A DNA stretch of 64,000 nucleotides from Actinobaculum sp. 313. GTDB lineage: Bacteria > Actinomycetota > Actinomycetes > Actinomycetales > Actinomycetaceae. Under the pieces are notes generated by a model that saw only the letters and a list, made by a program, of their open reading frames with translations, had not been told where the DNA came from and did no database searches. The stretch lies in contig NZ_CP029033.1 in the NCBI RefSeq assembly GCF_003073475.1, positions 62,001 to 126,000 of the forward strand, read 5' to 3'. How positions within the stretch are numbered: position 1 is the stretch's first letter; every line of letters begins with the position of its first letter. The translations under genes and the position numbers were made by a program. Shown piece after piece: positions 7,031 to 58,744 of the stretch.

Positions 7031-7110
7031 AGATGTGGTCAGGTGCCTGTAGTACTACGGCTCTGATAGGGCCTGGGCTGCACGGTGAGTTCTGACGGAT
7101 ACATCCGGAT

Positions 7111-7150: not shown

Positions 7151-7232
7151 TGTGGTCACTTTCGTGTCGGCGTGGAGAGCTGAATCGTCCCGGGTTTGAT
7201 GGAGGCAGTGATTACACGGAAGGATTACTGTC

Positions 7233-8614: not shown

Positions 8615-8645
8615 AACAACCTCAACAAAACCCCGGGACTTGACA

Positions 8646-8976
8646 TACGGCCAAGCACCGCAAACGCTGGTTATGGTGGGATTGCACACACGTCACGGAA
8701 TGACACGCTTGCTTGATACCGGATAAGCACTCAAAAAACACAGGTAAATTCAACAAGCAGTGAATGTTGCATGCCCGCATGTCATCGCGTACCTGATCCG
8801 GGTTACGTTGTGAAGAAGGTGCAAAGAACGCACATTCTCTTTAGGGAGATTGACTCTACGTGTTATTCTGTACGCCTAGCACTGAAGTAATCACGCGCGT
8901 GCTCCGCCAGATTCCTGTGTACAGGCGTGGGGCGCGGCAAGAGTAGACGTTTGGCCTATCATATTCAGGAGGATGC
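8646..8976 (+). promoter_or_regulatory. Upstream region and promoter of adhesin 2
   Basis: No gene is seen. A -10-like TATTCT at 8864-8869 is followed by CCTAGCACT (8875-8883), the same arrangement as in front of adhesin 1. A TTGACT at 8850 lies too close to pair with it. The ribosome site AGGAGG sits at 8968-8973. Confidence 0.4.
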
Positions 8977-13746: not shown

Positions 13747-13831
13747 GGCAAATGACCCTGAGGTGAGTAGACGATTGGACGATCAGGAGGTCGGCTAGGT
13801 CCACGCTCACCGAAAGAATACGGAAATCCCA

Positions 13832-13870
13832 GAGGGTGGCGGCACGGCTGTGTCGCCACCCTCCCGTGTT
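13832..13870 (+). terminator. Terminator of adhesin 2
   Basis: A 10-bp perfect stem (GAGGGTGGCG / CGCCACCCTC, 13832-13841 and 13854-13863) with a 12-base loop lies about 85 bases after the stop codon. The T-tract is weak (CCGTGTTTG). Confidence 0.65.
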
Positions 13871-14020
13871 TGTGACCACAAGTCTTACGAGGCCTTTTAT
13901 ACGTTAAGGGCTCTGTGCTATCGTCATTTCTACCGAAGAATCATCGAGGCCAGTTCCGTCCATTCTTTACGGGGGTATGAGGGGCGAACTGGTAGACACA
14001 CACATTCCTCAGGAGGACGG

Positions 14021-20000: not shown

Positions 20001-20053
20001 TCGCGGGTGGCAGTGCAGCCGTGTGGCTGTACCGGCGGCGTAAGGAATCCTGA
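14021..20053 (+). CDS. LPXTG-anchored giant adhesin 3 (Ig-like adhesive domain plus DUF5979 repeats)
   Basis: 2010 residues from ATG 14021, behind CTCAGGAGGACGG; the open frame extends upstream to 13850, but that part has no ribosome site and runs through the preceding terminator. The signal peptide ends at LSARA-AN. The Ig-like adhesive region (about 45-370) resembles those of adhesins 1 and 2 but is the most diverged. Fifteen repeat domains follow: one atypical (GGFDVTKLV) and fourteen of the alternating two-cysteine type, several nearly identical. The sorting signal LPFTG is at 1976-1980, then a hydrophobic helix and RRRKES. A 678-bp block is present twice inside the gene. The product would be a very long wall-anchored stalk with a distal adhesive head; ligand unknown. 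Confidence 0.92.
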   Translation: MAGHSRVAAANGRYRRIIVAFAAVVAVLLSQVGLTLSARAANNPNIVISDLSLVRTNEAGVERPGDKLQVDDYAKLDFTWDASNANVTGGDSFTIDLGSYFRNLEYPKTTAMTVLHNGEQVEIGSCSLTQTTIVCAFNSKVDELKAAGFSGFRGTGSAALRVLKSTTSETADITTNGVTSVDLPSTGGISEKIGEPYAPYEFSKWAGGAWGRRGMTWGINFGTKYVSQKAGITLDGTRQTIVITDTLGEGMSFGNPPSLRDWRLAYRASEGDTVMQNIGLATADGADVTLDYGDFDIDVEIEGNTATITLTGPFRPNSNYMVTYPAVFNGGSYNYGVIYGNSATLKGAEQTREAERWFTDSFAITVDMQVGWGGFDVTKLVTGPGSSTVPEGTTFTVRVVYQLPAQAVVYRSRGWEPPGTLNEDTVTGSVDMTVTVGQKTPYNGVFPRGTLIWLYEDPSTSSFNDLGWGEPQFLVNGYVRNRMSIGDRTSIPVTLTNTTAPRGTFSVAKNVAGADAGGKQFSFAYECSDNQSGTLSVLGDGKAVTADKVFALGTTCTISENTVSAQLDGYTLAEPEPQMVTISDATTPVTATFANSYTRDQGSFSVQKVVSGDYAPSASETYDVSYNCDDEDETAGWLALPADGTPLTVANLPAGTTCTIEEEANSAQRNGYAVATSYSATNVVIAKDETKSLTVTNNYTRLVGGFTVAKTVDGDGADLAPASFDFEYSCTNDAGEPTVSGTLTVGRGSSQAVENVPVGTCLVSEKDAQVANTQLATTLTVNGQVIDATSTAVDVTDGAAIAIEATNTYTLDRGTFAVAKNVSGTNAATSKQFFFAYECTDGQSGSVTVPGDGTVVTADKTFPIGTSCTVTEDAASAQIDEYALQVPAPQTVPISDKTTPVTVSFANDYQRLVGGFTVSKTVNGDGAALAPTSFTFDYACVDAGGQETASGILEVDAGSTTSLSDIPTGSCTITERPAEVENAQLTTSIAVDGQEVAGSSTTIQVTDNSNVAVAATNTYTLDRGSFTVAKAVTGDYTPGEGESFTVNYRCNDADATSGSLSVPADGTAVTVDNLPAGTNCVIGEESDSAERDGYAVAVDYSATNVDIESETTQAVTVTNRYTRLVGGFTIAKTVDGDGADLAPASFDFDYTCVDGAGAETISGTLRVAAGSSASVADVPTGSCTITEGDAQVAHTQLATSLTVDGQAVDGSSVTVEVLDGSAIAISATNTYTLDRGSFTVAKAVTGDYTPGAGESFTVGYTCDDPDASAGALTVPADGSAVAVDNLPAGTSCTITEDADSAQRDGYALATSYSATNVTIAKDTAQAVTVTNEYTRLVGGFTVAKTVDGDGASLAPQSFDFDYACVDGAGAETVSGTLSVAAGSAESVTDVPTGSCTVTEKDADVDKAQLATTLTVDGQAVDGNTATIEIGDGSAIAIAATNTYTRDRGSFTVAKAVTGDYTPGEGESFTVGYTCDDADSSSGSLSVPADGSSVSVDGLPTGTTCTITEDATSAQRNGYAVATSYSATAVTIEKDSAQAVTVTNRYTRLVGGFTIAKTVDGDGADLAPASFDFDYTCVDGAGTETVSGTLTVAAGQSERVADIPVGTCTVREKDASADRTQLKTTLLVDAQVVEGSETTVKIGDGSAIAISATNTYTLDRGSFTVAKAVTGDYTPGAGESFTVGYTCDDPDASAGALTVPADGSAVAVDNLPAGTSCTITEDADSAQRDGYALATSYSATNVTIAKDTAQAVTVTNEYTRLVGGFTVAKTVDGDGASLAPQSFDFDYACVDGAGAETVSGTLSVAAGSAESVTDVPTGSCTVTEKDADVDKAQLATTLTVDGQAVDGNTATIEIGDGSAIAIAATNTYTLDRGTFAVTKKVTGADKAKNKDFTFVYECSNGQSGSLQVPGNGTTVQSDKSFPLGTSCKVAEDAATARLDGYKLTAPDAQNVSIEEKDQVVELEFTNTYVAKKPKSKLPFTGVEVLGTLTLAVLAIAGGSAAVWLYRRRKES
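17674..18351 (+). repeat. First copy of a 678-bp repeat inside adhesin 3
   Basis: Covers about two repeat domains and recurs at 18946-19623. The offset of 1272 bp equals four domains (424 residues), so the reading frame is kept by any recombination between copies. Confidence 0.9.
18946..19623 (+). repeat. Second copy of the 678-bp repeat inside adhesin 3
   Basis: Direct repeat of 17674-18351; identity appears complete by eye. The match ends within the codons for NTYT, where the final, different domain begins. Confidence 0.9.
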
Positions 20054-22790: not shown

Positions 22791-23325
22791 GCGCTGTCTG
22801 GGCGTATACCTACGTCGCCAATGCTGTTCGAGAACGACCGTGCAGGAGAGGCGGTTGCCTGGGCTCGAGGGAACGATGGCGTGCGATTAGGTTCGGCCTT
22901 CCCAATTCCGGCATGGGAAGTGGCCGCCGATCTCAGATGATGGCACGGGCGGTCGGATGGAGGCCGATGCCTCCCGGCCGTGACGGATAGTGGCAGCGAA
23001 GGTAGGGGGAGTTAAGGTGGCAGAGTTGTGAGCTCAAATGCATTGCTGCGGGTGATAAACGGCTGTTGACAGGTGGACTCACCATCATGAGTTGTATGTG
23101 TTTTACTTCACAATTCACCGCCAGTCGGCTCCTAGCGAGTCGTTTACCAGCGGTTTTGGCGCTTGACTGTGGCTGATGTGAGGACCGGCACGTCGGTTGT
23201 GAAAATGTTTTCGCAAAGGCTATCACGAGGCAACAACTCTTGTGTTACGCTCTTCTGTATCGACATTCGTGCGAATTGCTTTGAAGATCCGATTCGCTAA
23301 CGAGGTATTTCCCGGAGGCACATAC
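22791..23325. other. Intergenic region upstream of the pilus cluster
   Basis: No supported gene. Local base composition is lower in GC from 23030 on, as expected for a promoter region. TTGACA at 23067 with TTGTAT 20 bases later is a poor promoter match. The ribosome site GGAGGC is at 23314-23319. Confidence 0.35.
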
Positions 23326-26265
23326 ATGGCGACGTCTCGTCATGCGCATCAAACGATCCCACGAAGGGCAGGGGATATGGTGTACGAATCAAGCAGCCGC
23401 TCGCGCTTTGCACACTGTGTGGCAACGCTGTTCGCCGCCCTGATGGCAGTGACGACGCTGAGTAACACAGCCAATGCGGAGCAAAGCGCGCAGAGCAGCG
23501 GATCCTTGGACTCAACGGCGCTAACAGCCCTGCCCGGTGGAGCACTCCCGGCAGTTTTCGCAACGGGAGGCGAAGGGCGATTCAAGGAAGCTATTCAATG
23601 GTTGCAGTGGGCGGATTACAGCCTGTTTGATGCAAACGGGCGTCCCACGAACGATCCGGTTCAACCACCTGCGGATTCGGGCGCAGTGTGGACCAATCCT
23701 GACAATACGACGGTCCTACGCAGTTCCGGCAGTAAGACAAGCAACACTTTTGTCAATTATCGTGACATGGGTGACGCTGGGCAACTCGTCACGACCTGCA
23801 CGCTTTCGAACTTGCAGCAACTGGATGAAAAAAGCGGTGAACTAGTTGCGACCATTCCCGGAACATGGGCAGGTGACGCACTTGACGATATATACAACAT
23901 CGGTGGAGCCGGCTATTTCAACGGGGAGATCAGATACCCGACCAACTATGTCAACCCGAACACCATGGTGACCGGTCTTGCTAATGGTTATGCCTATAAG
24001 GGTGAACAGGGTCTAGGGCACGACGCGAAAGTCAGCTTCGACCTCTCATGTGAGGCGCGGTTGGATGCTCCCGACGGGATCTCACAGGAGGTGTCACTGG
24101 CAGGCTTGGTTTTCGCGGACGCTGAAGCCTCCAGTATGAGTTATGGCGATCCCCTTTCCGGGAAGCCGTATCGGGATGAATGGGTGCAGGCGGCGGTTAA
24201 TGGCAATGTCACATGGCGTGTTCTCGACACCTATAAGAGTGGTGCCAACGGCGCGGACTGCCCTGTGACGACCGTTGCAGCCATGGATTCTCCGCGCTCA
24301 TTGCGCTTCGAGACGACCGGTCTTGGTGCCGTAACCGAGGGTCGGGAGTGCGTTTATAACACGTACAACGGTGTTGCCGGTCGATACTCGGTTCCGCTGG
24401 GAAACGGCGGACCTGACGCGGTCGTATTTATGGAAGGTGCCACTAGAGCCACCATCACACTGCAGGGTGGCGGCTATAGTGCAGTAGCACTCGGGTTCAT
24501 CATCGCTGCCGATTTCGGAGATGCGCCAGAGTCCTACGGCAAGGCGTCGGCGCTGTTCCAGCCCACATGGACCGGTGGCGCGGTGAGCAGAAACGGCCAA
24601 GATCTCTTTGCGCTGGGTAAGGCGAGTATGGGCGCATCTCAGACTCGGCTCGGTGCCAATATCGACGCTGAGGGGTATCACCAGCACAGCGATGACGCCC
24701 TCGGTGATGACGCGAATGGCGATCCAGATGACGAGGACGGAGTCGTACTGCCTGTGCACGGGATTCGCGTGCGGCCAGGGCAGTCGTTCCAGCAGTCCGT
24801 ATCCTGTACCGGACCGGGCAAGGTTGCGGGATGGATCGACTGGAATCACAACGGGATCTTCGACGACGGCGAGAAGTCGAACGAAGTTATGTGCCACGCC
24901 TCGCGAGTGAATTTGCTGTGGACGGTTCCTAACGACGTCGTGCGCAGCGTTGACGGCGAATCCGGCAGTCAAGGCGATACATACATGCGTGTGCGTATAT
25001 CGAATGACTCTGCAGCCTTGCGGCCTACCGGTAACACAACGACCGGTGAGGTTGAGGACTACAAAGTTGCAGTGCGGGTGCCCACTCTGCAGTTGATCAA
25101 GCAGGTTGACAACACCTACACGGGAAGCGAATCCACGGCGCTGTCTGCAACGGACTGGACTCTGACGGGCAATTCGGGCGCGTGGAGTGTTTCCGGTGCG
25201 GGAACCACCGGCGATCCGTCTGTTGTCCAGCCAGGGGTGTATACCCTCAGTGAGAATGCGTCAAGTCCACAGGCTGCTGGTTACGAGGCAGGCGAATGGG
25301 CCTGTACCGCGACAGATGGGACGCAGGGAGAGAATTACACCTCGTGGATTCAAGCATCGCGGCCCGGGGTAGCAACTCTCTATCTGCGGAGCCAAGACCG
25401 TGTCACATGCACCATTGTGAATGTTGCACGGCCTGGCAGTTTGGTTTGGAAGAAGTACGCGGCCGACGGCGAGACGCAACTGGGCGGTTCGGAGTGGACA
25501 CTGACCGGTCCCGGTGTTCCCAATAGCACAACGGTTACGGACTGTGTGGCCGACTCTGCTGACAGTTGCCCTTCCGGAGATTATGTCGATACCGATCCGG
25601 CTGCCGGTGCCTTCAAGATTGCGAACCTGCACTGGGGTACCTACTCGATCAAAGAAACCGAGGCTCCTGCGGGCTACCAGCCGACGTCGGAAACCTTCAC
25701 GTTCCCAACCATCTCCGGCAGTCAACTTGAGGTGACTCTCGTAGATTCGTCGAGCGATGCCATTGCGAACGGAGGCGTAGTCAACACGCCTCTGACAGGA
25801 ACCGTGAAGTGGTCGAAAACGGACACGCACGGCAACTTGCTCAGCGGTTCCGAATGGACACTCACTGGTCCGGACGTTCCGGCTAACACGACAGTCGTCG
25901 ATTGCGTTGCCGACACCGCTGAGCAATGCCCGACAGGTCCTTACACCGACCGTGATCCACGCGCCGGAGTCTTCTTCTTAGAAGATTTGGCGTGGAGCTC
26001 GGACTCCTATTCTCTTGTGGAGAAGACGGCACCAGCCGGATATCGGTTGGATGCCGCGCCCCATGAGTTCATGATCGCTACCGATGCGCTGGACTACGAA
26101 TTCAGCGAAGCGTTTACGAACAAACCGGGTAAAGTTCCCGGGTTGCCGCTGACGGGCGGAATGAGTACTGACTCGTTCCTCATTGGAGGCATCGCCCTTT
26201 TGCTGGTCGCGTTTGGTGGCGCCGTCCTGCGCCGAAAGAGGGGAGGGGTGGCTTTCGAGGGGTAA
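23326..26265 (+). CDS. LPXTG tip pilin with CshA-like, GEVED and SpaA-type domains
   Basis: 979 residues from ATG 23326 behind CCCGGAGGC; later in-frame ATG 23377 has a poorer site. The signal peptide ends near NTANA-EQ. Residues about 60-390 resemble the non-repetitive adhesive region of CshA-type fibrillar adhesins. Then comes a GEVED domain (DFGDAPESYG ... DDEDGVVLP ... GEVEDYKV). One intermediate domain (LQLIKQVDNTYTG) follows, and then two SpaA-like prealbumin domains (SLVWKKYAADGETQLGGSEW and TVKWSKTDTHGNLLSGSEW), each ending in an E-box-like stretch (KETEAPAGY, VEKTAPAGY). The sorting signal LPLTG is at 940-944. Position first in the cluster, large size and adhesive N-terminus fit the tip subunit of an Actinomyces-type fimbria. 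Confidence 0.9.
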   Translation: MATSRHAHQTIPRRAGDMVYESSSRSRFAHCVATLFAALMAVTTLSNTANAEQSAQSSGSLDSTALTALPGGALPAVFATGGEGRFKEAIQWLQWADYSLFDANGRPTNDPVQPPADSGAVWTNPDNTTVLRSSGSKTSNTFVNYRDMGDAGQLVTTCTLSNLQQLDEKSGELVATIPGTWAGDALDDIYNIGGAGYFNGEIRYPTNYVNPNTMVTGLANGYAYKGEQGLGHDAKVSFDLSCEARLDAPDGISQEVSLAGLVFADAEASSMSYGDPLSGKPYRDEWVQAAVNGNVTWRVLDTYKSGANGADCPVTTVAAMDSPRSLRFETTGLGAVTEGRECVYNTYNGVAGRYSVPLGNGGPDAVVFMEGATRATITLQGGGYSAVALGFIIAADFGDAPESYGKASALFQPTWTGGAVSRNGQDLFALGKASMGASQTRLGANIDAEGYHQHSDDALGDDANGDPDDEDGVVLPVHGIRVRPGQSFQQSVSCTGPGKVAGWIDWNHNGIFDDGEKSNEVMCHASRVNLLWTVPNDVVRSVDGESGSQGDTYMRVRISNDSAALRPTGNTTTGEVEDYKVAVRVPTLQLIKQVDNTYTGSESTALSATDWTLTGNSGAWSVSGAGTTGDPSVVQPGVYTLSENASSPQAAGYEAGEWACTATDGTQGENYTSWIQASRPGVATLYLRSQDRVTCTIVNVARPGSLVWKKYAADGETQLGGSEWTLTGPGVPNSTTVTDCVADSADSCPSGDYVDTDPAAGAFKIANLHWGTYSIKETEAPAGYQPTSETFTFPTISGSQLEVTLVDSSSDAIANGGVVNTPLTGTVKWSKTDTHGNLLSGSEWTLTGPDVPANTTVVDCVADTAEQCPTGPYTDRDPRAGVFFLEDLAWSSDSYSLVEKTAPAGYRLDAAPHEFMIATDALDYEFSEAFTNKPGKVPGLPLTGGMSTDSFLIGGIALLLVAFGGAVLRRKRGGVAFEG

Positions 26266-26362
26266 TCCCGCAGATCCGGTCACGACTACATAGACATCGG
26301 GTCAACACACACAACATCCCTTCCATTCATGGCTGGGCACTAATGAAAGGAATCAGAATACG

Positions 26363-27934
26363 ATGAGCGCACACACTCATCTTGTCGGCAAGCGCGGAAG
26401 CGCGGTCGTCGGCGCCCTGGCGCTCGGCATGGTCGGCATTGTCGGAGGCACGTCGGCTGTTGCCGATGAGCTGTCGTACGGCAATATCGATCAGAACGCC
26501 AAGGGCTCCATCATTGTTCACAAGCACCTCAATGGTGATGGAACGCTGGGTACTCCCGATGGTTCCGGCACCGAGGGCGATAAGCCCGTCGAAGGCGTGA
26601 CGTTTGCCGCCTACCCGATCACGAGCCTGGACCTTTCCAAGGCATCTGATTGGGAGACCCTCTCCAACCTCACGGTGCCGGATAACGCCTGTGCAAATCC
26701 GACATCACCGACGTTGGACAGCCAGACGCTGGACGCCGCTGCAGGTAGCGCAACCACGATCAGTGACGGTTCCGCCACCATTGGCAATTTGAAGGTGGCG
26801 GCCTACCTCGTCTGCGAGACGGATGCGCCGGCCAATATCGTGCAAAAGGCGAAGCCGTTCGTTGTCACCATCCCTTACCCAAATACTGCCGATGGCGAAG
26901 AGGGTAACTGGCTGTACAACGTGAACGTTTACCCGAAGAATGAGGAAATCTCGATCAGTAAGACTGTCGAGAACCAGTCCGATTACGGCTACGGCCTCGG
27001 TTCGGTTGTCTCCTTCCCGGTGACGACCACCATCCCGACTCTGGATGAGACCGCGTACTTCAAGTACTTCCAGATCAAGGATGCGATGGATGAGCGTTTC
27101 GGTGAGGTCGAAGTGAGCTCGGTTACCCTGGGTACGACCCCTCTCGCCGAGGGCACTGACTACACGGTCAACGCTAACGGCAACAGCTTGACTGTGGCCT
27201 TCACCAAGGAAGGTCTGATCAAACTGAAGAACAACGCCTCCGCCGAGCTCAAGGTCGTCTTCCAGGGCAAGATCACCTCGGTTGGTGACGGTAACATCAA
27301 GAACAAGGCGCAGTTGCTCACGGATACCGAGTACTCCACGACTCCTCCGCCGGACGATCCGGACGATCCGGAGGAGCCGGAGAACCCGCCGACAACCCCG
27401 GAGGTTGTTACGCACTGGGGCGACGTCAAAGTACGCAAGGTTGACGCTGACAACACCGACAAGGGTCTGGCCGGCGCCACCTTCCAGGTGTACGCCGCCG
27501 AAGACCCCTACGCCAGTAACTGCTCGAGTGCCGTGAAGACTGGCAGCCCGCTGTCCGTGAACGGAACCGACACCTTCACTTCGGATTCCAATGGTGTGGT
27601 GGAGATCGCAGGTCTGTACGTCTCCGATTCGGAGAATGATCCGAAGGACGCCACGCAGCGTTGCTACGTGCTCGTTGAGACCGCGGCTCCTGCCGGTTTC
27701 GTCGTTCCTTCGAATAACGAGACACCGCTGACGGTTAAGATCGGCCAGACCGCTACCGGAAGCTGGGATGCCACGATTGCTAACAGCAAGCAGACCGTTC
27801 CGGGACTGCCGCTGACCGGTGCGCAGGGTAAGCTTCTCATGACCCTGGGAGGCATTGTTCTGTTGCTCGTTGCGGGTGGTTCCGTGATGGTGGTTCGTTC
27901 GCGTCGTCAGAAGGCGGCTGAACAGTCGGAGTGA
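26363..27934 (+). CDS. Major (shaft) pilin, LPXTG-anchored, SpaH/FimA-like
   Basis: 523 residues from ATG 26363 behind GAAAGGAATCAG. A signal peptide ends near TSAVADE. The pilin motif WLYNVNVYPKN is present with the polymerising lysine at about 192. The E-box YVLVETAAPAGF has its glutamate at about 439, and the sorting signal LPLTG is at 482-486, with a hydrophobic segment and RSRRQK tail. An N-terminal domain, a middle CnaA-like domain (SISKTVENQ...), a Pro/Asp/Glu linker (PPPDDPDDPEEPENPP) and a CnaB domain (GDVKVRKVDADNTDKGLAGATF) are visible. A class C sortase joins the pilin lysine of one subunit to the LPXTG threonine of the next. The cognate sortase gene follows directly. Confidence 0.94.
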   Translation: MSAHTHLVGKRGSAVVGALALGMVGIVGGTSAVADELSYGNIDQNAKGSIIVHKHLNGDGTLGTPDGSGTEGDKPVEGVTFAAYPITSLDLSKASDWETLSNLTVPDNACANPTSPTLDSQTLDAAAGSATTISDGSATIGNLKVAAYLVCETDAPANIVQKAKPFVVTIPYPNTADGEEGNWLYNVNVYPKNEEISISKTVENQSDYGYGLGSVVSFPVTTTIPTLDETAYFKYFQIKDAMDERFGEVEVSSVTLGTTPLAEGTDYTVNANGNSLTVAFTKEGLIKLKNNASAELKVVFQGKITSVGDGNIKNKAQLLTDTEYSTTPPPDDPDDPEEPENPPTTPEVVTHWGDVKVRKVDADNTDKGLAGATFQVYAAEDPYASNCSSAVKTGSPLSVNGTDTFTSDSNGVVEIAGLYVSDSENDPKDATQRCYVLVETAAPAGFVVPSNNETPLTVKIGQTATGSWDATIANSKQTVPGLPLTGAQGKLLMTLGGIVLLLVAGGSVMVVRSRRQKAAEQSE

Positions 27935-27985
27935 TTCACCTCGGCTGAGCTCGCGCCGACGGTGAAGGCGCAGTAACACCGGTGT

Positions 27986-28011
27986 GGCGGGAGGATATAT
28001 GCCCTCCCGCC
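27986..28011 (+). terminator. Intercistronic hairpin between shaft pilin and sortase
   Basis: A perfect 9-bp stem GGCGGGAGG/CCTCCCGCC with an 8-base loop and no T-tract. It may attenuate read-through so that sortase is made in lower amounts than pilin, or stabilise the pilin message. Confidence 0.55.
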
Positions 28012-28101
28012 ACGCGTGTTGTAGGGGTGCCGCGGCGCTGAGGGTCGCGGTGAAGTCTACTGCAGGTGGTGGAACTATTGCTTCGGGGAGAGGGACTTGT
28101 A

Positions 28102-29523
28102 ATGAGAATGTGGAAGCCCGGTCGGCATCGCTCGCGGGCCGCCGAAAAGCCGACGGTAGACGAGCTGACGATAGAAGACCCGACAGTAGACGAACCGACG
28201 GCGCCAGAGTCGGTGACAGGCGAGTCTGGGGTAGCCGAGACGATAGGGGAGGACTCCGCAGCAGTGGAAGAGGCTGACCAAGAGCTTCTCGGTGCATCGC
28301 ACGTATCGGCACCGCCGACAGCTGAGGCTGAGGGGTCCCGGGAACACGAGTCCAATTCCGTCGTCGGAACCAGACTTGAGAGCGAGCCCGGATCTGGCCG
28401 CAAAGCGATACCAGGCAGCGATGCGGAGCGGGAAACACGGGCCACGGCCAAGCGTGGCCCGTGGAAGTTCTCCTGGCTTTCACTTGTGCCTGCGCTGATT
28501 GCATTGCTCGGCATGCTTGTCCTCGCTTATCCGACCGCCGCGAGCTGGATCGCGCAATACAACCAGTCAAAGGTCATCAGCAAGTATTCCGACAGCGTGA
28601 ATTCCGCCGACCCATCTGCGCAGGAACAATTGCGTCTCGCGTATGAGTACAACGACGCCCTACGTGCCGGTGCGATCCTTGAAGCGAATTCCAATGTTCC
28701 AACGGGCAGCGGGTCGAGCGAGAACGAGTCGCTGGACTACAACTCGATGCTCCGTGCCAATTCGACCGGGCTTATGGCGCGTCTGCGGATTTCGGCCATT
28801 GATCTTGACCTTCCCGTGTATCACGGCACCTCTGATCAGACGCTTTTGAAGGGCGTGGGACATCTGGAGGGAACCTCGCTACCCGTGGGTGGTGAGAGCA
28901 CTCGATCAGTACTCACCGGGCACCGCGGCCTGGCACAGGCTACGATGTTCACCAACCTGGACAGGTTGAAGGTGGGCGATACCTTCACCATCGAAATCTT
29001 CGATGAAGTCCTGACCTACCGCATCTACGACAAGAAGGTCGTGGAGCCCACGGAGACGGAGGCCCTGCGGGTCGAGGAAGGACGCGATCTCGTCACTCTC
29101 GTGACCTGCACGCCTCTGGGCATCAACACGCATCGTATTCTCGTGACGGGAGAGCGGGTCTACCCCACACCGCAGGAGGATCTGGATGCTGCGGGTAAGA
29201 CCCCTGAAATACCACGGTTTCCGTGGTGGGCGGTGGCATTGCTCGTCGGATTCGTCCTAATTGGCGTGTATATCTGGCGTTCCGGCTATCCCGCCAAGCC
29301 CCGCAAGAAGAAGCACGTTGGCGATGCCAGCTCCACGGAACATGCTCAGCAGAAAGGCGAGAAGAACGGGAGGCTACAAGAAGGTGACGCCTCGCGCTCG
29401 GATAGTGAGGAGTCGGGTCCCGATAGCAAGGAGTCAGCTCCCGATAGCAAGCAGTCGGGCCCGGACCGAGACGGTGAACTGGCCGCCCAAGAAGCCGGTC
29501 CGCCAGGCCGGGATGGCCAATGA
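28102..29523 (+). CDS. srtC: Class C (pilin-polymerising) sortase
   Basis: 473 residues from ATG 28102 behind GGGGAGAGGG. The catalytic triad is visible: His274 in LTGHRGL, Cys336 in TLVTCTPLG, Arg345 in INTHR. A membrane helix at about 124-145 (LVPALIALLGMLVLAYP) and a second near the C-terminus (about 374-392) are typical of class C sortases. Unusual are the roughly 115-residue acidic, repetitive N-terminal extension (VDELTIEDPTVDEPT) before the first helix and a C-terminal tail with a degenerate PDSKESAPDSKQSGP repeat. Both ends should face the cytoplasm. The usual class C lid motif (DPF/DPW) is not obvious. It should polymerise the shaft pilin encoded upstream. Confidence 0.93.
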   Translation: MRMWKPGRHRSRAAEKPTVDELTIEDPTVDEPTAPESVTGESGVAETIGEDSAAVEEADQELLGASHVSAPPTAEAEGSREHESNSVVGTRLESEPGSGRKAIPGSDAERETRATAKRGPWKFSWLSLVPALIALLGMLVLAYPTAASWIAQYNQSKVISKYSDSVNSADPSAQEQLRLAYEYNDALRAGAILEANSNVPTGSGSSENESLDYNSMLRANSTGLMARLRISAIDLDLPVYHGTSDQTLLKGVGHLEGTSLPVGGESTRSVLTGHRGLAQATMFTNLDRLKVGDTFTIEIFDEVLTYRIYDKKVVEPTETEALRVEEGRDLVTLVTCTPLGINTHRILVTGERVYPTPQEDLDAAGKTPEIPRFPWWAVALLVGFVLIGVYIWRSGYPAKPRKKKHVGDASSTEHAQQKGEKNGRLQEGDASRSDSEESGPDSKESAPDSKQSGPDRDGELAAQEAGPPGRDGQ

Positions 29524-38933: not shown

Positions 38934-39338
38934 GTGGCCGTGATCGTCTATTTTTCGTCAACGACGAACAACACGAAGCGTTTCGTGGAGAAGCTTGGCT
39001 TCCCCGCCTTCCGTATCCCGCTGCGCCCGAAGGATGAGTTCTTGCACATGGATGAGGACTACGTCCTGGTAGTTCCCACCTACGGAGGCGGCAACCTCAA
39101 GGGCGCCGTTCCGAAACAAGTCATCAAGTTCCTGAATGACGAGCGGAATCGCTCGCATATCCGTGGAGTCATCTCCGGCGGAAACACCAACTTCGGCACG
39201 GCTTATTGCATAGCCGGCGATATTATCTCGGCGAAATGCGGCGTGCCCCATATGTATAAATTCGAGCTACTCGGCACCCCGGATGACGTGGCGCGAGTAC
39301 GTGAAGGTCTGGAGAAGTTTTGGCAACAACCGCAATAG
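38934..39338 (+). CDS. nrdI: NrdI flavodoxin-like activator
   Basis: 134 residues from GTG 38934. The FMN-binding motifs of NrdI are visible: [18 protein letters not shown] at the N-terminus, [14 protein letters not shown] in the middle and [19 protein letters not shown]. NrdI supplies superoxide for assembly of the dimanganese tyrosyl radical cofactor in NrdF. It overlaps the nrdE start. Confidence 0.95.
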
Positions 39339-41473
39339 GCACGCTGACCGATACGGGCGAGGAGAGATCCTCTCTCGACTATCACTCGCTGAACGCGCAG
39401 CTGAACCTGTACGACGCCGACGGGAAGATCCAATTCCACGCCGACCGCGAGGCGGCCAGGCAATTCTTCCTCCAGCACGTCAATCAGAACACGGTGTTCT
39501 TCCACGATCTCGAGGAGAAGATGAAGTACCTCGTTGACGAGGGGTACTACGAGAAGGAGGTGCTCGACCAGTACTCCTTCGACTTCATCAAGGAACTGTA
39601 CAAGGCGGCCTACGCCCACAAGTTCCGCTTCCCGACCTTCCTCGGCGCATTCAAGTACTACACTTCCTACACCTTGAAAACCTTCGACGGTCAGCGTTAT
39701 CTGGAACGCTACGAAGATCGAGTGTGCATGGTGGCATTGACCCTAGCGCGCGGCGACGAACAACTGGCACGCGACCTGATGGAGGAGATCATCACCGGGC
39801 GCTTCCAGCCAGCCACCCCGACCTTCCTCAACGCCGGGAAGGCAGCACGCGGAGAACTGGTCTCCTGCTTCCTCTTGCGCATTGAGGACAATATGGAGTC
39901 CATCGCACGCGGTATTAACTCCGCCTTGCAGCTATCCAAGCGCGGCGGCGGCGTCGCCCTGAACCTGTCCAACCTGCGCGAGCAGGGTGCACCGATTAAG
40001 AAGATTGAAAACCAGTCCTCCGGGGTCAACCCGGTGATGAAACTGCTGGAGGACTCCTTCTCCTACGCGAACCAGTTGGGCGCGCGGCAAGGTGCTGGAG
40101 CTGTGTATCTGCACGCACACCACCCCGATATCATGCGCTTCCTCGACACCAAGCGGGAGAACGCGGATGAGAAGATCCGCATTAAGACGCTGTCGCTGGG
40201 TGTCATTATCCCGGACATCACCTTCCAACTCGCGCGCGCCAACGAGGATATGTACCTGTTCTCTCCCTACGATGTGGAGCGTGTGTACGGTGTACCCTTC
40301 ACCGAGATCAGCGTGACGGAGAAGTACCGGGAGATGGTTGACGACAAGCGCATCCGTAAGTCGAAGATCAACGCCCGGCAGTTCTTCCAGACGCTGGCGG
40401 AGATCCAGTTTGAATCCGGCTACCCCTACATCGTGTTCGAGGACACCGTGAATAAGGCCAACCCGATCAAGGGTAAAGTCACGATGTCGAACCTGTGCTC
40501 GGAGATCCTGCAGGTCTCCGAACCGTCCCGCCTCAACGATGACCTCTCCTACGAGTACGTCGGCAAGGATATCTCCTGCAACCTCGGCTCGCTGAACATC
40601 GCGAAGACGATGGATTCCCAGGACTTCGGCAAAACCATTGAGGTGGCGGTGCGCGCTTTGACAGCGGTATCGGATATGACGCATATCCGCTCGGTGCCCT
40701 CCATCGAACGGGGTAACGATATGTCTCACGCCATCGGCTTGGGCCAGATGAACCTGCACGGTTACCTCGGGCGTGAGCATATCCACTACGGCAGTGACGA
40801 GGCCTTGGACTTCACCAATATGTACTTCTACACCGTGGTGTACCACGCGATTCGCGCCTCGATGAACCTGGCGCGTGAGCGCGGTCAGCACTTCGAGGGC
40901 TTCGAGGAGTCCGCCTATGCCTCCGGCGCGTATTTCGACAAGTACATCAACCAGGTATGGGAGCCGACGACGCCGCGCGTGCGCGAGCTGTTCGCGGATA
41001 TCCATATTCCAACGCAGGAGGATTGGAAGGTGCTGAAGGCGGATGTGCAGCGTTACGGCATGTACAACCAGAACCTGCAGGCCGTGCCACCCACCGGATC
41101 CATCTCCTACATCAATAACTCGACATCCTCGATCCACCCGATTGTCTCCAAGGTTGAAATCCGTAAGGAAGGTAAGATCGGTCGCGTCTACTATCCGGCA
41201 CCGTACATGACCAATGACAACCTCGAATACTACGAGGATGCCTACGAGATCGGTCCGGAGAAGATCATCGATACCTACGCGGTGGCCACCCAGCATGTGG
41301 ACCAGGGCCTCTCCTTGACGCTGTTCTACCCGGATACGGTGACCACCCGCGATGTCAACCGTAATTACATATACGCCTGGCGCAAGGGAATCAAGACGCT
41401 GTACTACATGCGTATCCGCCAGCAGGCATTGGAAGGAACAGAGGTGCAGGGCTGCGTCTCCTGCATGCTATGA
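39320..41473 (+). CDS. nrdE: Class Ib ribonucleoside-diphosphate reductase, alpha subunit
   Basis: 717 residues from TTG 39320, overlapping the end of nrdI, with GGAGAAG upstream. The protein has the NrdE N-terminus ([33 protein letters not shown]), the catalytic core ([39 protein letters not shown] with active-site residues) and the C-terminal redox tail GCVSCML. It reduces ribonucleotides to deoxyribonucleotides with NrdF, which is encoded 16 kb away. Confidence 0.97.
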
Positions 41474-41693: not shown

Positions 41694-41723
41694 TTGACGC
41701 TCGGGAAAAACGTTCCGTAGTAT
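41694..41723 (+). promoter_or_regulatory. Sigma-70-type promoter of the leader peptide / SDR / CysK / LanC operon
   Basis: TTGACG (41694-41699) and TAGTAT (41718-41723) are separated by 18 bp, the best promoter match in this part of the window. Transcription would start near 41730 and give a leader of about 370 bases before the SDR gene. A hairpin with CCGCA/TGCGG followed by TTTT lies at about 41744-41776 inside this leader. Confidence 0.65.
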
Positions 41724-41909
41724 CCGAACTAATCCGACGCGCACCGCACGCCGTAGACATGCGGCGCTTTTCGGGCAGCGGGGAAGCCGAGCACCTGTTC
41801 CGGTGGACCGATGATCCGCCAAGGTGCCCGGGAACAAGAGAGTCGGCGTTGCCTTGCGCCACCGCAGGGTCTCACACCGGCAAAACGAACGAAGGAAAGG
41901 AGCTCTGAC

Positions 41910-42008
41910 ATGACGAATAGAATCCCAACGAACGGCGAAGCGATGTGTATGTGTTGTCAGGCGGGTGGAGTGCACCCGTTGAAGTCGTCATGTCGGAGGA
42001 GCCTGTAA
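41910..42008 (+). CDS. 32-residue cysteine-rich leader peptide
   Basis: A short gene with a near-perfect ribosome site (AAGGAAAGGAGCTCTGAC before ATG 41910) encodes 32 residues with Cys at 13, 15, 16 and 28, all TGT codons. The first three lie in the motif MCMCCQAGG. A perfect 6-bp hairpin (CGGGTG/CACCCG, 41962-41978) begins five bases after the cysteine cluster. A second hairpin and an intrinsic terminator follow the stop codon. This is the architecture of a cysteine-dependent transcription attenuator, as reported for poly-cysteine leaders of mycobacterial sulfur genes. An alternative is that the peptide is itself a substrate of the LanC-like enzyme encoded downstream; its basic, Ser-containing end (KSSCRRSL) does not exclude that. 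Confidence 0.7.
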   Translation: MTNRIPTNGEAMCMCCQAGGVHPLKSSCRRSL

Positions 42009-42012
42009 CCAT

Positions 42013-42066
42013 ACCTTCCACGGGAAGAAGGTTGTAGCGGATGCCCGGCAGGGCATCCGCTTTTTT
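42013..42066 (+). terminator. Attenuator: hairpin plus rho-independent terminator in the leader
   Basis: ACCTTC/GAAGGT (42013-42032) is followed by a perfect 10-bp stem GCGGATGCCC/GGGCATCCGC with loop GGCA (42037-42060) and TTTTTT. It stands between the leader peptide stop and the SDR start, so it must be bypassed for the operon to be expressed. A fully convincing alternative antiterminator pairing was not found by eye. Confidence 0.85.
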
Positions 42067-42099
42067 GTATTTCGACGTTTTGCAAAGGAGAACCAGGCG

Positions 42100-42894
42100 A
42101 TGAGCGATGGAAAGGTCGCAATCATCACAGGCGCCGCGCAGGGCATTGGATTTGCCGGAGCGCGACGATTTGCGGAGGGCGGTTACACCGCCATCTTGAC
42201 CGATCAGCACGGCCAGGAGGTGCGGCAGGCGGCCACTCTATTGCGGGAGGCCGGATACGCCGTGGCCGACTACGAGCTGGATGTGACGGACTTCCAGCAA
42301 GGCCAGGAGGTTGTAGCCGACGTCGTCGCGAAATATGGCCGGGTGGACGCACTTTTCAACAATGCGGGTATTACCGGCCACAGACCGACCGTGTTGAACT
42401 TCGACCCCGAGCAGATCAAGCAGGCCACGGAGGTCAATCTGTGGGGATCTCTCTACATGATCCAGCACGTTGCGCGTGTGTTCGTGGCTCAAGGAATCCC
42501 CGGAGCGATTGTCAATGTGTCGTCGTTCGTGGCGAGCTTTGCGGAGTGGTCGCCATTCGGCTACGGGATCTCGAAATCTGCGGTCGACGGTCTCACCCGA
42601 ACTGCCGCCTTCCACCTGGGTATGCACGGGATCCGCGTTAATTCCGTGGCGCCCGGATTCACAAAGACGGAGATGGCTATCAAGTACGACTACTCGGATC
42701 CGAAGATCCGCAAGATACAGGCGGAACGAGCGGTCCTGAATCGTTGGATCGAACCCGAGGAGATCGCCAATGCGGCCTTCTTCCTCGCCAGCGACCAAGC
42801 CAGTGCCATCACGGGCGTGAAACTCCCCGTCGATGCCGGATACACCATCACCAAAGAGAACAACATCGCCAGTATTTACGGCGAAACGGAATAG
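42100..42894 (+). CDS. Short-chain dehydrogenase/reductase
   Basis: 264 residues from ATG 42100 behind CAAAGGAGAAC. Classical SDR motifs: cofactor loop TGAAQGIG, NNAGITG, a Ser in NVSSF followed by the YGISK catalytic Tyr/Lys pair, and VAPGFTKTEMA. Asp in the second strand region (TDQHGQEV) favours NAD(H) over NADP(H). The substrate is unknown. It is the first gene after the attenuator and is followed by the CysK-like gene 30 bp on, so it should act in the same thiol- or cysteine-linked pathway. Confidence 0.9.
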   Translation: MSDGKVAIITGAAQGIGFAGARRFAEGGYTAILTDQHGQEVRQAATLLREAGYAVADYELDVTDFQQGQEVVADVVAKYGRVDALFNNAGITGHRPTVLNFDPEQIKQATEVNLWGSLYMIQHVARVFVAQGIPGAIVNVSSFVASFAEWSPFGYGISKSAVDGLTRTAAFHLGMHGIRVNSVAPGFTKTEMAIKYDYSDPKIRKIQAERAVLNRWIEPEEIANAAFFLASDQASAITGVKLPVDAGYTITKENNIASIYGETE

Positions 42895-42924
42895 CAGACT
42901 CAACAGCGTAAGTAGGAGATACTC

Positions 42925-44004
42925 ATGGCACGGATTTATAGATCCATTGCAGAACTCGTCGGCAACACGCCTCTCGTCGAACTGACAAACTATCAACGCG
43001 CACACGGCCTGCAGGCGCATATCTTAGGCAAACTGGAATTCCTCAATCCGAGTGGAAGCGTGAAGGACCGCCTGGCACTCGCCTTGATCAAGGACGGTTT
43101 CGACCGAGGGGAGCTCACCGAGGGCGGCACGATTATCGATGTGACCAGTGGGAATACCGGCATCAGCTTCGCGGCCATCGGTGCCGCGGAGAGGGTCGCT
43201 TTCATCCCGTATCTGGAACCGGGGACCACGGTGGAGCGGGTGCAGATATATCAGGGCTACGGGTTGGAAATCCATGATTTTAATGAGATCGAGGAGGTTG
43301 CCGGTTTCGAAGAGAAGGGTCTGATCTTGCAGGACCTGGTCGACGGAATCACCCGCATCGCCAAGGAGAACGGCTACTTCTACGCCGGGCAGACCATTAA
43401 CGAGCGGAATCAGGCGACCCACTATGAGACAACCGGCCCGGAGATCTGGCGAGATACCGACGGGCAGGTTGACTACTTCGTCGCCATGGGAGGAACTGCG
43501 GGAACCATAGTCGGTGCGGGCCGCTATCTGCGTGAGCAGAACCCGGAGGTCAAGATCGTCGGCGTACAGGCCGCAACATCCTCTCGCCCCGACAGTCCGG
43601 ATTTCACCGGTCATATCATCGACGGAACGCTGCCATTGGGCGGCGTCGACGAATCGCTGTTGCCACCACTTATTCACTCGAACACACCCAATGGCTTCGC
43701 CTTCGACGAGATTATCGATATCAGCGCGGAAAGAGCGTATGCGACGGCGCAAGCCGTTTCGCAAACCGATGGTCTCTTCCTAGGAACATCCGCAGCGGCG
43801 GCGCTTACGGCGGCCATTGAGATAGCGGCCCGGCCGGAGGCAGTCGGCAAGAACATCGTTGTCATCTACCCGGACAACGGCTACAAGTACCTATCCACCG
43901 ATCTGTTTAAACGCCCGGCGGTTTCAGCCGACTCTGCCGCCGATGGGCACGGCAGGGCGAATGACGAGGGGAAGCCGACGGATGAAGGGGACGATCAGGC
44001 ATGA
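42925..44004 (+). CDS. Cysteine synthase-family PLP enzyme
   Basis: 359 residues from ATG 42925 behind GTAGGAGATACTC. Fold-type II PLP motifs: LVGNTPLVEL, PLP lysine in NPSGSVKDRLAL, TSGNTGISFAAIG, and the phosphate loop GGTAGTIVGAGRYLRE. The family joins a thiol or other nucleophile to a dehydroalanine-type intermediate made from O-acetyl- or O-phosphoserine. The C-terminus (about 325-359) is a charged, low-complexity tail. It overlaps the LanC-like gene (ATGA). Because its companions are not sulfate-assimilation genes, it may be a specialised beta-substituting enzyme rather than the housekeeping CysK; this is inference. Confidence 0.9.
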   Translation: MARIYRSIAELVGNTPLVELTNYQRAHGLQAHILGKLEFLNPSGSVKDRLALALIKDGFDRGELTEGGTIIDVTSGNTGISFAAIGAAERVAFIPYLEPGTTVERVQIYQGYGLEIHDFNEIEEVAGFEEKGLILQDLVDGITRIAKENGYFYAGQTINERNQATHYETTGPEIWRDTDGQVDYFVAMGGTAGTIVGAGRYLREQNPEVKIVGVQAATSSRPDSPDFTGHIIDGTLPLGGVDESLLPPLIHSNTPNGFAFDEIIDISAERAYATAQAVSQTDGLFLGTSAAAALTAAIEIAARPEAVGKNIVVIYPDNGYKYLSTDLFKRPAVSADSAADGHGRANDEGKPTDEGDDQA

Positions 44005-45401
44005 CGCTGGCATTTGCGCAACCTTTGGTGAGCACGACGCTGGACACCGACGACTACCTGACGGCCGCTCTGGAAATTGCCGCCTATCTGCGTCATAACG
44101 AGGTCATAACACCGGAAGGCAAATACTGGAAGGTAAGCCCGGAACCAGGCAATGACTACGTGGGTGACCTGATGCTTACCCAGAAGGGCCTGTACGGCGG
44201 ATCGGCTGGAATCGGCCAGTTCTTCGTTCAGCTTTACGAGGCGACCGGCGATGAACAATGGCTTGCGGAGGCGAAGCAGGCTGCCGCATATATCCTGGCG
44301 ACCTACGAAGGTCCTGCTTTCTTCTCAGGCATACTGACCGGGCCTGTCGACGGTATTTGGCCCGTCGCGGGCTGGGGAACAAGTGTGTATGTGGGCCCGG
44401 CGGGCCAAGGAATCTTCTTGGAGCAGCTCTACGAAAAGACGGGGGATACGCGGTACCGTGATTTCCTTCTCACAACGGCCGACGACGCGATTGCGGCGGC
44501 TACGCGGGACGAGCACGGTCTGCACTGGAGTGATGCCATCGACCTGATGTCCGACGGCGGCTACGCCTTCTTCTTCCTATACGTCTATCGCAAAACAGGG
44601 GAGAACCGTTACCTGCAAGCGGCCGAGGATGTCATCGCCTATACGCGCACACGGCGCGTGGCGGCCGACGTCGGAGGTGCCTACTACAAAACCGTCGATT
44701 TGCGGCTGGTGGGATGGGAGTCCGAAGAGACGGTCTTCCCGAACTACTCGCACGGTGCCGCCGGTATTGCCTATCTCAACGCTCTGGCATATGAGGCCAC
44801 CGGTAAGCAGCACTACCTCGACGCGGCGACGGAGGTGGTGGATTTCCTGGCGGCCATTGCAGCAGGAGATAGTGACGGAGCATTGATTCCGTACCTGTAT
44901 AACCCGCAGCGGGGAAACTTCAAGGAGTTCTACTACCTCTCCACCTGCCACGGGCCGGTCGGCACCACCATATTGTTCCGCAAGCTCTACGACACTACGG
45001 CCGACCAGCAGTATCTCGAGTGGATCGACATACTGACCAAGGGCGTGCTGCAACTCGGTGCGCCTCTGGTCCACTCAAAGGGGTACTGGAACAGCTACTG
45101 CCTGTGCTGCGGCGCGCCGGGTCTGCTCATCCACTTTGTGAAAACGGCTGAGAAACTCGGGCGACCGGAATACCTGGAGCAGGCACGACATACGGCACGT
45201 AAGCTGCTCGGCGACTCGTGGAATGACGCAGACGGAAGGCGCTGGTACGCCGCTTGGACCCGCAAACTTCCTGGGCTTGTCGAGACATACACCGGGCTGT
45301 ACGCCGGTGCGGCGGGCGCCGGTAGTGCGCTGCTGTATCTCTACGCGCGGGATCGGGGAATCGCACTCAGTGAAACGGTGGATTACCTATTCCTACGTTG
45401 A
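44001..45401 (+). CDS. LanC-like protein (lanthionine synthetase C family)
   Basis: 466 residues; ATG 44001 overlaps the CysK-like stop. The sequence is a series of about seven helical hairpins with GxxG-type loops (LYGGSAGIG, VYVGPAGQG, YSHGAAGI, TCHGPVGT, LCCGAPGL, LYAGAAGAG), the toroid of LanC cyclases. The Cys-His of STCHGPVG and the cysteines of YCLCCGAPG occupy the positions of the zinc-binding residues of LanC. LanC enzymes add a cysteine thiol to dehydroamino acids; mammalian LanCL proteins add glutathione. No LanB/LanM dehydratase, protease or transporter is in view. A stand-alone thiol-addition enzyme or a maturase for the cysteine-rich leader peptide are both possible. Confidence 0.85.
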   Translation: MTLAFAQPLVSTTLDTDDYLTAALEIAAYLRHNEVITPEGKYWKVSPEPGNDYVGDLMLTQKGLYGGSAGIGQFFVQLYEATGDEQWLAEAKQAAAYILATYEGPAFFSGILTGPVDGIWPVAGWGTSVYVGPAGQGIFLEQLYEKTGDTRYRDFLLTTADDAIAAATRDEHGLHWSDAIDLMSDGGYAFFFLYVYRKTGENRYLQAAEDVIAYTRTRRVAADVGGAYYKTVDLRLVGWESEETVFPNYSHGAAGIAYLNALAYEATGKQHYLDAATEVVDFLAAIAAGDSDGALIPYLYNPQRGNFKEFYYLSTCHGPVGTTILFRKLYDTTADQQYLEWIDILTKGVLQLGAPLVHSKGYWNSYCLCCGAPGLLIHFVKTAEKLGRPEYLEQARHTARKLLGDSWNDADGRRWYAAWTRKLPGLVETYTGLYAGAAGAGSALLYLYARDRGIALSETVDYLFLR

Positions 45402-45733: not shown

Positions 45734-46834
45734 ATGATCCGAACCGTTATGCCATTGGACGACGTCGTCGGCGCATCCGCCCGCGCACACAAGCCCGCTA
45801 CGAGCCTTCCCGGCGCACCGGGTACTGCGGCAAGCGTGGAGATTCTCAGCTGGGACAGGGAACTGGTATCGAAGAGCGGTACGCCGCAGTGGCCGGGTGG
45901 TCGGCCCATGGTGGTAGTGATCCCGGGCGGGAGTTATCAATACTGTTCACCGCGCGAGGCCGATCCGGTGGCGCTGCGATTCCTGGCCGCGGGATATAAC
46001 GTGGCGGTGCTGCGCTACCGGGTGGGCGCCGACTCCCGCTACCCCTTGCCCTTGCGGGATCTAGCGGCGGCGCTGGTGGTTATCCGTGAAAATGCGGAGG
46101 AGTTGGGGACCGACCCCGAACGAATCGTATTGTGCGGGTTCTCGGCGGGTGGCCATCTCGCGGCAACGTTTGCCTCCACCGTTGCCGCAGACTGGGCGGG
46201 AGTCGGCGCTGGCCGGGGAGGAGAAGGTGCGGGTCGAGGAGAATGTGACGCTGCGCATACCTCAGGTCCCGTTCGCTCCAGCCGGGAGGTCGATATTGGT
46301 GGGGGTGAGTTGGTGCAGACGCGCCGAATCGTGCCTGCGGATCCGTCCGATTCGACTACTGGGTGGACCGCGGAGCTCGCATCGGCTGACCGTGTGCACA
46401 CGCAAGGAGGTCTTGCGGCCCACCTCGGCATTCTCGGAGTGATTCTCGGATATCCGGTAGTGGATTTCCACGCGCTGGAGGAGTACTACCAGCACAGCGA
46501 CGGCCTAGAATCGACATCCGGCCGAGTGGGTGCCATGCTCGCCGACTACCGGCCAGAAGCAGACCCCGCGGTGCTGGCAGGCCCACATACTCCGCCCACT
46601 TTCATCTTCACAACGGGAACGGATGAGATTATTCCGGCCGTGCACACCATGAACTATGCGCGGCGGCTCGCCGACTACGGCGTTCCGGTAGAGCTACACG
46701 TGTATTCCTCGGGATTACACGGATTGTCAGTGGCGGATGCGACTGCTTGCGTGGAGGAAGACTACCCGGCGAGGGTGGGAGGATGGATCGAGGCTGCACT
46801 GGCCTGGGTCAGTGAACTGTTCAGCCTGCGGTGA
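45734..46834 (+). CDS. Alpha/beta-hydrolase (BD-FAE/esterase-like)
   Basis: 366 residues from ATG 45734. The oxyanion-hole region is VVIPGGSYQYCSPREADPVALRFLAAGYNVAVLRYRVG, the nucleophile elbow is GFSAGGHLAA, and the Asp/His end is TGTDEIIP ... SGLHGLS. This pattern matches alpha/beta-hydrolase-3/BD-FAE esterases. A Gly/Glu/Arg-rich insertion of about 65 residues follows the nucleophile (about 155-220) and looks unstructured. The substrate is not predictable. It may belong to the preceding thiol operon but lies 330 bp away. Confidence 0.88.
   Translation: MIRTVMPLDDVVGASARAHKPATSLPGAPGTAASVEILSWDRELVSKSGTPQWPGGRPMVVVIPGGSYQYCSPREADPVALRFLAAGYNVAVLRYRVGADSRYPLPLRDLAAALVVIRENAEELGTDPERIVLCGFSAGGHLAATFASTVAADWAGVGAGRGGEGAGRGECDAAHTSGPVRSSREVDIGGGELVQTRRIVPADPSDSTTGWTAELASADRVHTQGGLAAHLGILGVILGYPVVDFHALEEYYQHSDGLESTSGRVGAMLADYRPEADPAVLAGPHTPPTFIFTTGTDEIIPAVHTMNYARRLADYGVPVELHVYSSGLHGLSVADATACVEEDYPARVGGWIEAALAWVSELFSLR

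Positions 46835-57682: not shown

Positions 57683-58744
<1,062 letters not shown>

Follow-up and report, generated by a model that had tools for sequence, protein, structure and literature searches.

In a 64,000-nucleotide stretch of the genome of Actinobaculum sp. 313 (contig NZ_CP029033.1, positions 62,001 to 126,000; hereafter the window, which is part of a complete genome of 2.77 Mb), an operon at 41694 to 45401 on the forward strand encodes a short-chain dehydrogenase/reductase (SDR), a CysK-like pyridoxal phosphate (PLP) enzyme and a stand-alone LanC-like enzyme, preceded by a promoter-like site, a leader with Cys codons and an intrinsic terminator. We find the genes for the LanC-like and CysK-like enzymes side by side in distantly related bacteria, in part of the loci among genes of cysteine and methionine metabolism. 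The best explanation as a whole, to which we give a probability of about one half, is that they form a cysteine-metabolism module whose two core enzymes would share one type of substrate, a small thiol or thioether. The promoter, the 32-residue leader with four Cys codons, the terminator and the three genes had all been proposed in a preliminary description of this DNA, and each lies where it had been placed; the interpretation given there is supported in part. The features are as follows.

41694..41723, forward: promoter-like site, TTGACG-18-TAGTAT
41910..42008, forward: 32-codon leader open reading frame (ORF) with four Cys codons (41946, 41952, 41955 and 41991)
42036..42066, forward: hairpin of 11 pairs (42036-42061) with a T run, resembling an intrinsic terminator, downstream of the leader and upstream of the SDR gene
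42100..42894, forward: classical SDR, probably NAD dependent (TGAAQGIG, D35, YxxxK; Pfam adh_short_C2, 5e-63)
42925..44004, forward: CysK-like PLP enzyme (fold type II) of a distinct subfamily (Pfam PALP, 6e-55); codon of the PLP lysine K47 at 43063-43065
44001..45401, forward: stand-alone LanC-like enzyme, CCG type (Pfam LANC_like, 1.6e-28)
44751..44753, forward: codon of H251, by alignment motif the counterpart of the LanCL1 catalytic acid H219 (PMC9934072)
44946..44951, forward: codons of C316 (predicted zinc ligand) and H317, the latter the counterpart of the LanCL1 enolate-binding H277 (PMC9934072)
45105..45110, forward: codons of C369 and C370, which are predicted to supply the second and third zinc ligands (CCG, not CHG)

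The CysK-like and LanC-like genes share 4 bases (an ATGA overlap). The whole unit, from leader and terminator through SDR, CysK-like and LanC-like genes, is present at the equivalent position after nrdE in a sister genome of the same genus (Actinomycetaceae metagenome-assembled genome [MAG] contig SUUB01000025, locus L016). The three proteins are 89 to 92% identical between the two genomes, with ratios of nonsynonymous to synonymous substitution rates (dN/dS) of 0.08 to 0.10, and by this pairwise comparison the LanC-like and CysK-like genes are shown to be under purifying selection.

Pairing of the LanC-like and CysK-like enzymes

Contigs from GTDB and genomes of Lachnospiraceae, Coriobacteriia and other groups were searched with the LanC-like protein only. 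Relatives were found in Granulicoccus, Fibrobacter, Clostridiales, Lachnospiraceae, Kineothrix, Butyrivibrio, Collinsella and a Coriobacteriaceae MAG. An intact CysK-like gene stands directly beside the LanC gene in 21 loci, the window included, in Actinomycetota, Fibrobacterota and Bacillota, and since CysK was not part of the search, this adjacency is not a search artefact. The order varies by clade (CysK-LanC or LanC-CysK), while the adjacency is constant. The LanC and CysK trees have their main clades in common, and the two distance matrices are correlated with a Mantel r of 0.853, a value that none of 9,999 shuffles reaches (best shuffle, 0.323). A chance neighbourhood is ruled out by the 21 adjacent loci together with the matching distances, and from these comparisons the LanC-like and CysK-like enzymes are shown to be inherited as a pair. 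In two more loci (L028 and L030) the CysK-like gene is present but cut or frameshifted. The exceptions to adjacency are the more distant proteins of Mesobacillus (L009) and L012, and L052, whose single CysK is of the canonical type and lies at a distance of 8 kb. Three loci (L018, L032 and L047) end at contig edges, and the most distant matches (L004, L005, L007 and L008) were seen with short flanks only.

The pair is sporadic, being present in 2 of 213 genomes of the window's family and in 1 of 157 in the sample of the Granulicoccus family; 9 of 299 genomes in the sample of the Lachnospiraceae family have a match at E below 1e-120. No relative was found in viral contigs, plasmids gave only weak LanC matches, and carriage by viruses was rejected, as was a defence system, for which there was no PADLOC match.

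Several loci have peculiarities of their own. A Lachnospiraceae locus has two tandem, strongly diverged LanC paralogues (L046:7400-8788 and 8981-10318, reverse strand), which share one CysK-like gene between them. A second CysK of the Fibrobacter locus (L020:15533-16519, reverse strand) clusters with the LanC-linked clade and has no LanC beside it. The stand-alone LanC of a Mesobacillus megaplasmid (L009:11929-13257) keeps the Cys motifs, but Tyr occupies the position of the catalytic His (FYG for SHG), and no CysK gene is next to it. Among Lachnospiraceae there are also a LanC homologue with an in-frame TAG (L041/L052) and the frameshifted CysK-like gene of L030, which represent either decay or sequencing errors.

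That the LanC-like protein is an accessory, for example a zinc-bound thiol carrier or an allosteric partner that binds the CysK-like enzyme as CysE binds CysK, would account for the constant adjacency and the matched evolution, and complexes of CysK with CysE and other partners are well known. However, the catalytic His residues described below are invariant, which a mere carrier would not need, and we consider this explanation very unlikely.

Genes beside the pair in other genomes

A cysteine/methionine setting is found in 8 of about 20 loci. The Fibrobacter (L020) and Clostridiales (L022) loci have the same gene order, namely, a gamma-lyase-type enzyme, a PatB lyase, SDR, CysK and LanC, while L050 has gamma-lyase, PatB, CysK and LanC, and L024 has LanC, CysK, DUF997, a sodium symporter, gamma-lyase and PatB. 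In L048, MetQ, MetN and a permease come first, then PatB, another Cys/Met PLP enzyme and a gamma-lyase, and last a canonical-type CysK, LanC and the CysK-like gene. In L049, a PatB-like gene, NifS and NifU precede CysK and LanC. Altogether, a gamma-lyase-type enzyme, a PatB lyase or both lie beside the pair in L020, L022, L024, L046, L048, L049 and L050. An OAH-sulfhydrylase-like gene is present in L029, and the sodium symporter is present in L023 to L025.

The preliminary description had treated SDR, CysK and LanC as a three-gene unit, and the search that it had suggested for this gene order in other genomes was positive: in addition to the window, an SDR of the window type accompanies the pair in L016, L017, L020, L021 and L022. 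Because this SDR is common to three phyla (Actinomycetota, Fibrobacterota and Bacillota) at 65 to 92% identity to that of the window, the comparison points to movement of the whole three-gene block between phyla. The SDR is not beside the pair in most Lachnospiraceae loci or in the Coriobacteriia loci, in which LanC and CysK are still together, and L029 and L053 have a more distant SDR ahead of the pair; on the loci compared, the SDR is outside the core. In the SDR itself, T10-G17 (TGxxxGxG), S142, Y155 and K159 are invariant, and D35 indicates that it is probably NAD dependent.

The CysK-like enzyme

The CysK-like protein keeps the PLP lysine K47, the TSGNTG loop (T74-G79) and the phosphate loop (G190-T194), and its structure matches have the cysteine synthase/cystathionine beta-synthase (CBS) fold and consist only of cysteine synthases, CBS and relatives; none of the matches found names its substrate. 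It fails every equivalog cut-off, with scores of 224 against 351 for CysK, 208 against 394 for CysM and 183 against 510 for CBS. The genome's own CysK, whose gene is followed by that of CysE, scores 446 bits and passes the CysK cut-off. In all aligned members of the CysK-like group, IDG and an insertion replace the IQGIGAGFVP stretch of the substrate-cleft loop (canonical GIGAGF(V/I)P), and there are two insertions in total, with about 12 extra residues after position 115. In the tree, the CysK-like clade is split from canonical CysK by a fully supported branch. Because it falls below all cut-offs, has a remodelled loop and forms a separate clade, we conclude from its sequence that the CysK-like protein is a different enzyme rather than a spare cysteine synthase, and its partner may be larger than, or different from, sulfide.

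The LanC-like enzyme

The preliminary description had assigned the third protein to the LanC family, and a model of its structure agrees with this. The protein scores 99.7 bits with PF05147 (curated cut-off, 23.2), and its AlphaFold2 model (predicted local distance difference test [pLDDT], 86.8; predicted template modelling score [pTM], 0.90) is an alpha/alpha toroid of the LanC/LanCL fold. The top 20 matches in a structure search with this model are all of the LanC type (Z of 22 to 35); CuvL (34.6), LanCL2 (32.6), GCR2, MadC, LanCL1 and NisC (30.3) all have Z values of 30 to 35. A sugar-active toroid (GH88, GH127, GH76 or an epimerase) was rejected on weaker profile scores and on Z values of 18 to 22, compared with 28 to 35 for most LanC structures.

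Five residues (H251, C316, H317, C369 and C370) do not vary among the 16 LanC proteins aligned. Mapped by motif from the alignment and fold, H251, C316, H317 and C369 match catalytic residues of LanCL1, in which the acid His219 and the enolate-binding His277 were defined by a product-bound structure (PMC9934072). The zinc ligand positions of CylM are Cys, Cys and His (PMC4550811), and a CCG pattern, in which the third zinc ligand is Cys, has been described for LanM enzymes of the ProcM/SyncM type (PMC12328550). We predict that the zinc ligands of the window protein are C316, C369 and C370, which is a three-Cys site with Cys in place of the canonical His. The ligand positions are retained as the preliminary description had held, but the mixture of Cys and His that it named is to be corrected to three predicted Cys ligands; the conserved H251 and H317 are catalytic positions.

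The best NCBIfam profile for the protein is that of LanM, at 109 bits, far under the LanM cut-off of 304. The window protein is the single LANC_like match in the whole genome, and because there is only this one match, there is no LanM, LanKC or LanL synthetase of known type in the genome. A genome search for DUF4135 (the LanM dehydratase) gave no match, but control genomes were also without a match; no dehydratase is among the scanned window proteins, and LanB was not searched genome-wide. These results bear on the possibility that the operon makes a small natural product or a ribosomal peptide with thioether links, with cyclization by LanC and with tailoring or precursor supply by the SDR and the CysK-like enzyme. 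Membership of the LanC family and transfer across phyla would fit such a pathway, and relatives of CysK occur in pathways of this kind (O-ureidoserine synthase and SbnA are among the profile matches of the CysK-like protein). However, the genome lacks a class II-IV synthetase, and inspection of the loci revealed no lanthipeptide dehydratase, precursor peptide, protease or exporter flanking the pair. We regard this possibility as highly improbable. The preliminary description, which had noted the absence of a lanthipeptide dehydratase, peptidase and exporter, is supported in this by the single LANC_like match and by the cysteine and sulfur settings elsewhere.

A second possibility is defence against electrophiles or dehydroalanine, in which LanC would use a small thiol to trap reactive acceptors or dehydroamino acids of proteins, in the way that LanCL uses glutathione, and the cysteine adduct would be recycled by the remaining enzymes; free cysteine lost to electrophiles would then relieve the leader. 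The closest solved relatives of the LanC-like protein include LanCL1 and LanCL2, and H317 is a LanCL-type residue, both of which are consistent with such a role. Set against this, the context is one of Cys/Met metabolism rather than of stress response, and the sporadic distribution, both in the window's family and in the Lachnospiraceae-family sample, is unlike that of a housekeeping repair enzyme. We judge defence to be unlikely.

The leader and its regulation

The leader peptide, MTNRIPTNGEAMCMCCQAGGVHPLKSSCRRSL, is encoded from an ATG at 41910 to a stop at 42008, has a ribosome-binding site and carries Cys at codons 13, 15, 16 and 28. At the coding background of 0.7% Cys, the probability of at least four Cys in 31 residues is ~7e-5. 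The leader of L016 differs at 3 of 32 residues and keeps all four Cys codons; the terminator is also preserved there, and both promoter hexamers are identical, with a changed spacer. Promoter-like sites in the window DNA are about as frequent as in shuffled sequence. A Cys-rich small ORF alone is weak evidence because the 64-kb window has 57 of them when the criterion is loose and 11 when tightly clustered Cys are required.

An ORF scan of the canonical cysK-cysE operon of the same genome found a Shine-Dalgarno-preceded leader, MMHATRRPSFCMCCLCL (L054:1299-1352; genome C1 ~1918209-1918262), whose stop at L054:1352 is 121 bases before cysK. This leader, which ends in FCMCCLCL, has a CMCC cluster in common with the leader of the SDR-CysK-LanC operon. 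ORFs with a tight Cys cluster arise by chance at 0.085 per kb and strand, which makes one within 300 bases a ~2.5% chance per operon. The presence of leaders with runs of Cys on both operons is stronger evidence than the Cys content of either ORF and supports a candidate cysteine regulon. The cysK-cysE leader also has a strong hairpin, without a T run. A DNA search for a leader like that of the window elsewhere in the same genome found none, only a partial reverse match to the terminator palindrome. Rfam gave no match to a riboswitch, a T-box or any other known RNA in the vicinity of the operon or of homologous loci, and such an element was rejected.

A proposed role in cysteine metabolism

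It is likely that the operon carries out carbon-sulfur (C-S) chemistry on small molecules within a cysteine regulon. CysK-type enzymes are documented beta-replacement enzymes. In the mechanism that we propose, the LanC-like enzyme would bind a small thiolate on its three-Cys zinc site and make or break a C-S bond beta to a carbonyl, by thia-Michael addition or its reverse. The CysK-like enzyme would exchange the beta-substituent of an L-amino acid through a PLP-bound aminoacrylate, with a partner larger than sulfide, and the SDR, where present, may set or remove the carbonyl on the partner. It is close to an even bet that this represents a LanC family in primary metabolism, that is, a zinc thia-Michael/retro-Michael enzyme acting on free small thiols together with a dedicated PLP beta-substitution enzyme, in an undescribed and horizontally mobile pathway by which gut and rumen bacteria acquire cysteine.

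The direction of the pathway is a more tentative matter. In salvage, S-conjugated cysteine-type amino acids would be imported (by the sodium symporter in some genomes), and the conjugates would be split by LanC in a retro-Michael reaction, by CysK-like exchange and by PatB/gamma-lyase to give cysteine when it is scarce. Salvage from S-conjugates is possible and slightly favoured because LanC reactions can run in reverse (PMC9934072), although we hold this direction with considerable doubt. In forward assimilation, the acceptor of LanC would be an unsaturated acid or ketone, made with the help of the SDR, to which it would add a small thiol or sulfide; the CysK-like enzyme would move the thiol to an activated serine, and the lyases would finish the synthesis of cysteine or homocysteine. 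Forward addition is the documented LanC reaction (PMC9934072), CysK-type beta-replacement is likewise established, and the gene setting and leader fit equally well as they do for salvage. However, canonical CysK and CysE are already in the genome, so that a second forward route needs a special reason, and no acceptor-making gene recurs except the SDR, which is missing in most loci. We consider forward assimilation rather unlikely.

Several observations weigh against a cysteine-metabolism module, whichever its direction. No C-S lyase is beside the pair in the window or in the Granulicoccus, Collinsella and Butyrivibrio loci, and the transporter and lyases are found in only part of the loci. To our knowledge, the documented substrates of LanC enzymes are peptides and proteins, plus glutathione, and free amino acids are not among them. 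No convincing Cys-rich leader was found upstream of homologous loci outside the genus, and as far as seen, the leader is confined to the window's genus. Attenuation by cysteine, as put forward in the preliminary description, agrees with the conserved Cys leader, the terminator and the similar leader on cysK-cysE, but equilibrium folding found no antiterminator, the terminator having a pairing probability of ~1 from every 5' end and ribosome position tried.

The individual families are known, and LanC enzymes are known as makers of macrocyclic peptides and, among eukaryotes, as enzymes that attach glutathione to damaged proteins. No prior description of the LanC-CysK pair was found in the open full-text literature (subscription journals and preprints were outside the search), and the pair as a cysteine-metabolism module is absent from the literature searched. 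Its recurrence beside cysteine/methionine genes in gut and rumen bacteria of three phyla suggests a role of LanC chemistry in everyday sulfur metabolism as well. A LanC within the cysteine regulon and tied to a relative of cysteine synthase would extend the family to free small molecules and could bring to light a sulfur source or a C-S bond reaction new for animal guts. Because some of the loci have cultured hosts (e.g., Granulicoccus phenolivorans, Kineothrix and Butyrivibrio), the pair is directly testable.

Other features of the window

The operon and several other genes lie between nrdE (39320-41473) and nrdF (57713-58744), which are both on the forward strand and 16 kb apart. The alpha/beta hydrolase gene 3' of LanC (45734-46834) is faster evolving (dN/dS, 0.23) and shows no linkage to the pair beyond the genus. 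Three giant surface proteins with DUF5979 repeats are encoded at 3425-20053, upstream of a cluster of SpaA-type pilus and sortase genes (23242-29523), and two of the three have near-identical internal repeats in common, with a spacing of 630 to 636 bases.

Comparison with known systems

The LanC-like protein resembles LanCL1 and LanCL2 in its stand-alone LanC fold, in the correspondence of H251 to H219 and of H317 to H277, and in the zinc ligands equivalent to C276 and C322. It differs from them in that the third ligand is Cys370 rather than His323, in that identity is only 16 to 18%, and in that it is partnered with a CysK-like enzyme. The glutathione-binding residues of LanCL (R4, K317, R364, D367 and E374) are not recognisable by alignment, and D367 and E374 have no clear counterparts in the sequence. 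With the cyclase domain of CCG-type LanM enzymes (ProcM and SyncM) it has in common the CCG motif, which is three Cys zinc ligands, but it has neither a dehydratase domain nor a precursor peptide. Like NisC and the class I cyclases it is a stand-alone alpha/alpha toroid; in contrast to NisC, it has His rather than Tyr beside the first zinc ligand and CCG rather than CHG, and no LanB or LanA partner was seen. The CysK-like enzyme is a PLP enzyme of fold type II like CysK, CysM and CBS, with the same PLP lysine and TSGNTG and phosphate loops, and is set apart from them by its sub-cut-off scores, remodelled substrate loop, two insertions and separate clade. Finally, short leaders with clustered Cys codons have been published for the cys and cbs operons of actinobacteria (PMC1262725). 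The window leader is like these in its short length, in its clustered Cys codons and in the cysteine-related operon downstream. It differs in that a clear intrinsic terminator follows it, which the published cases lacked, and in the content of its operon, which is new.

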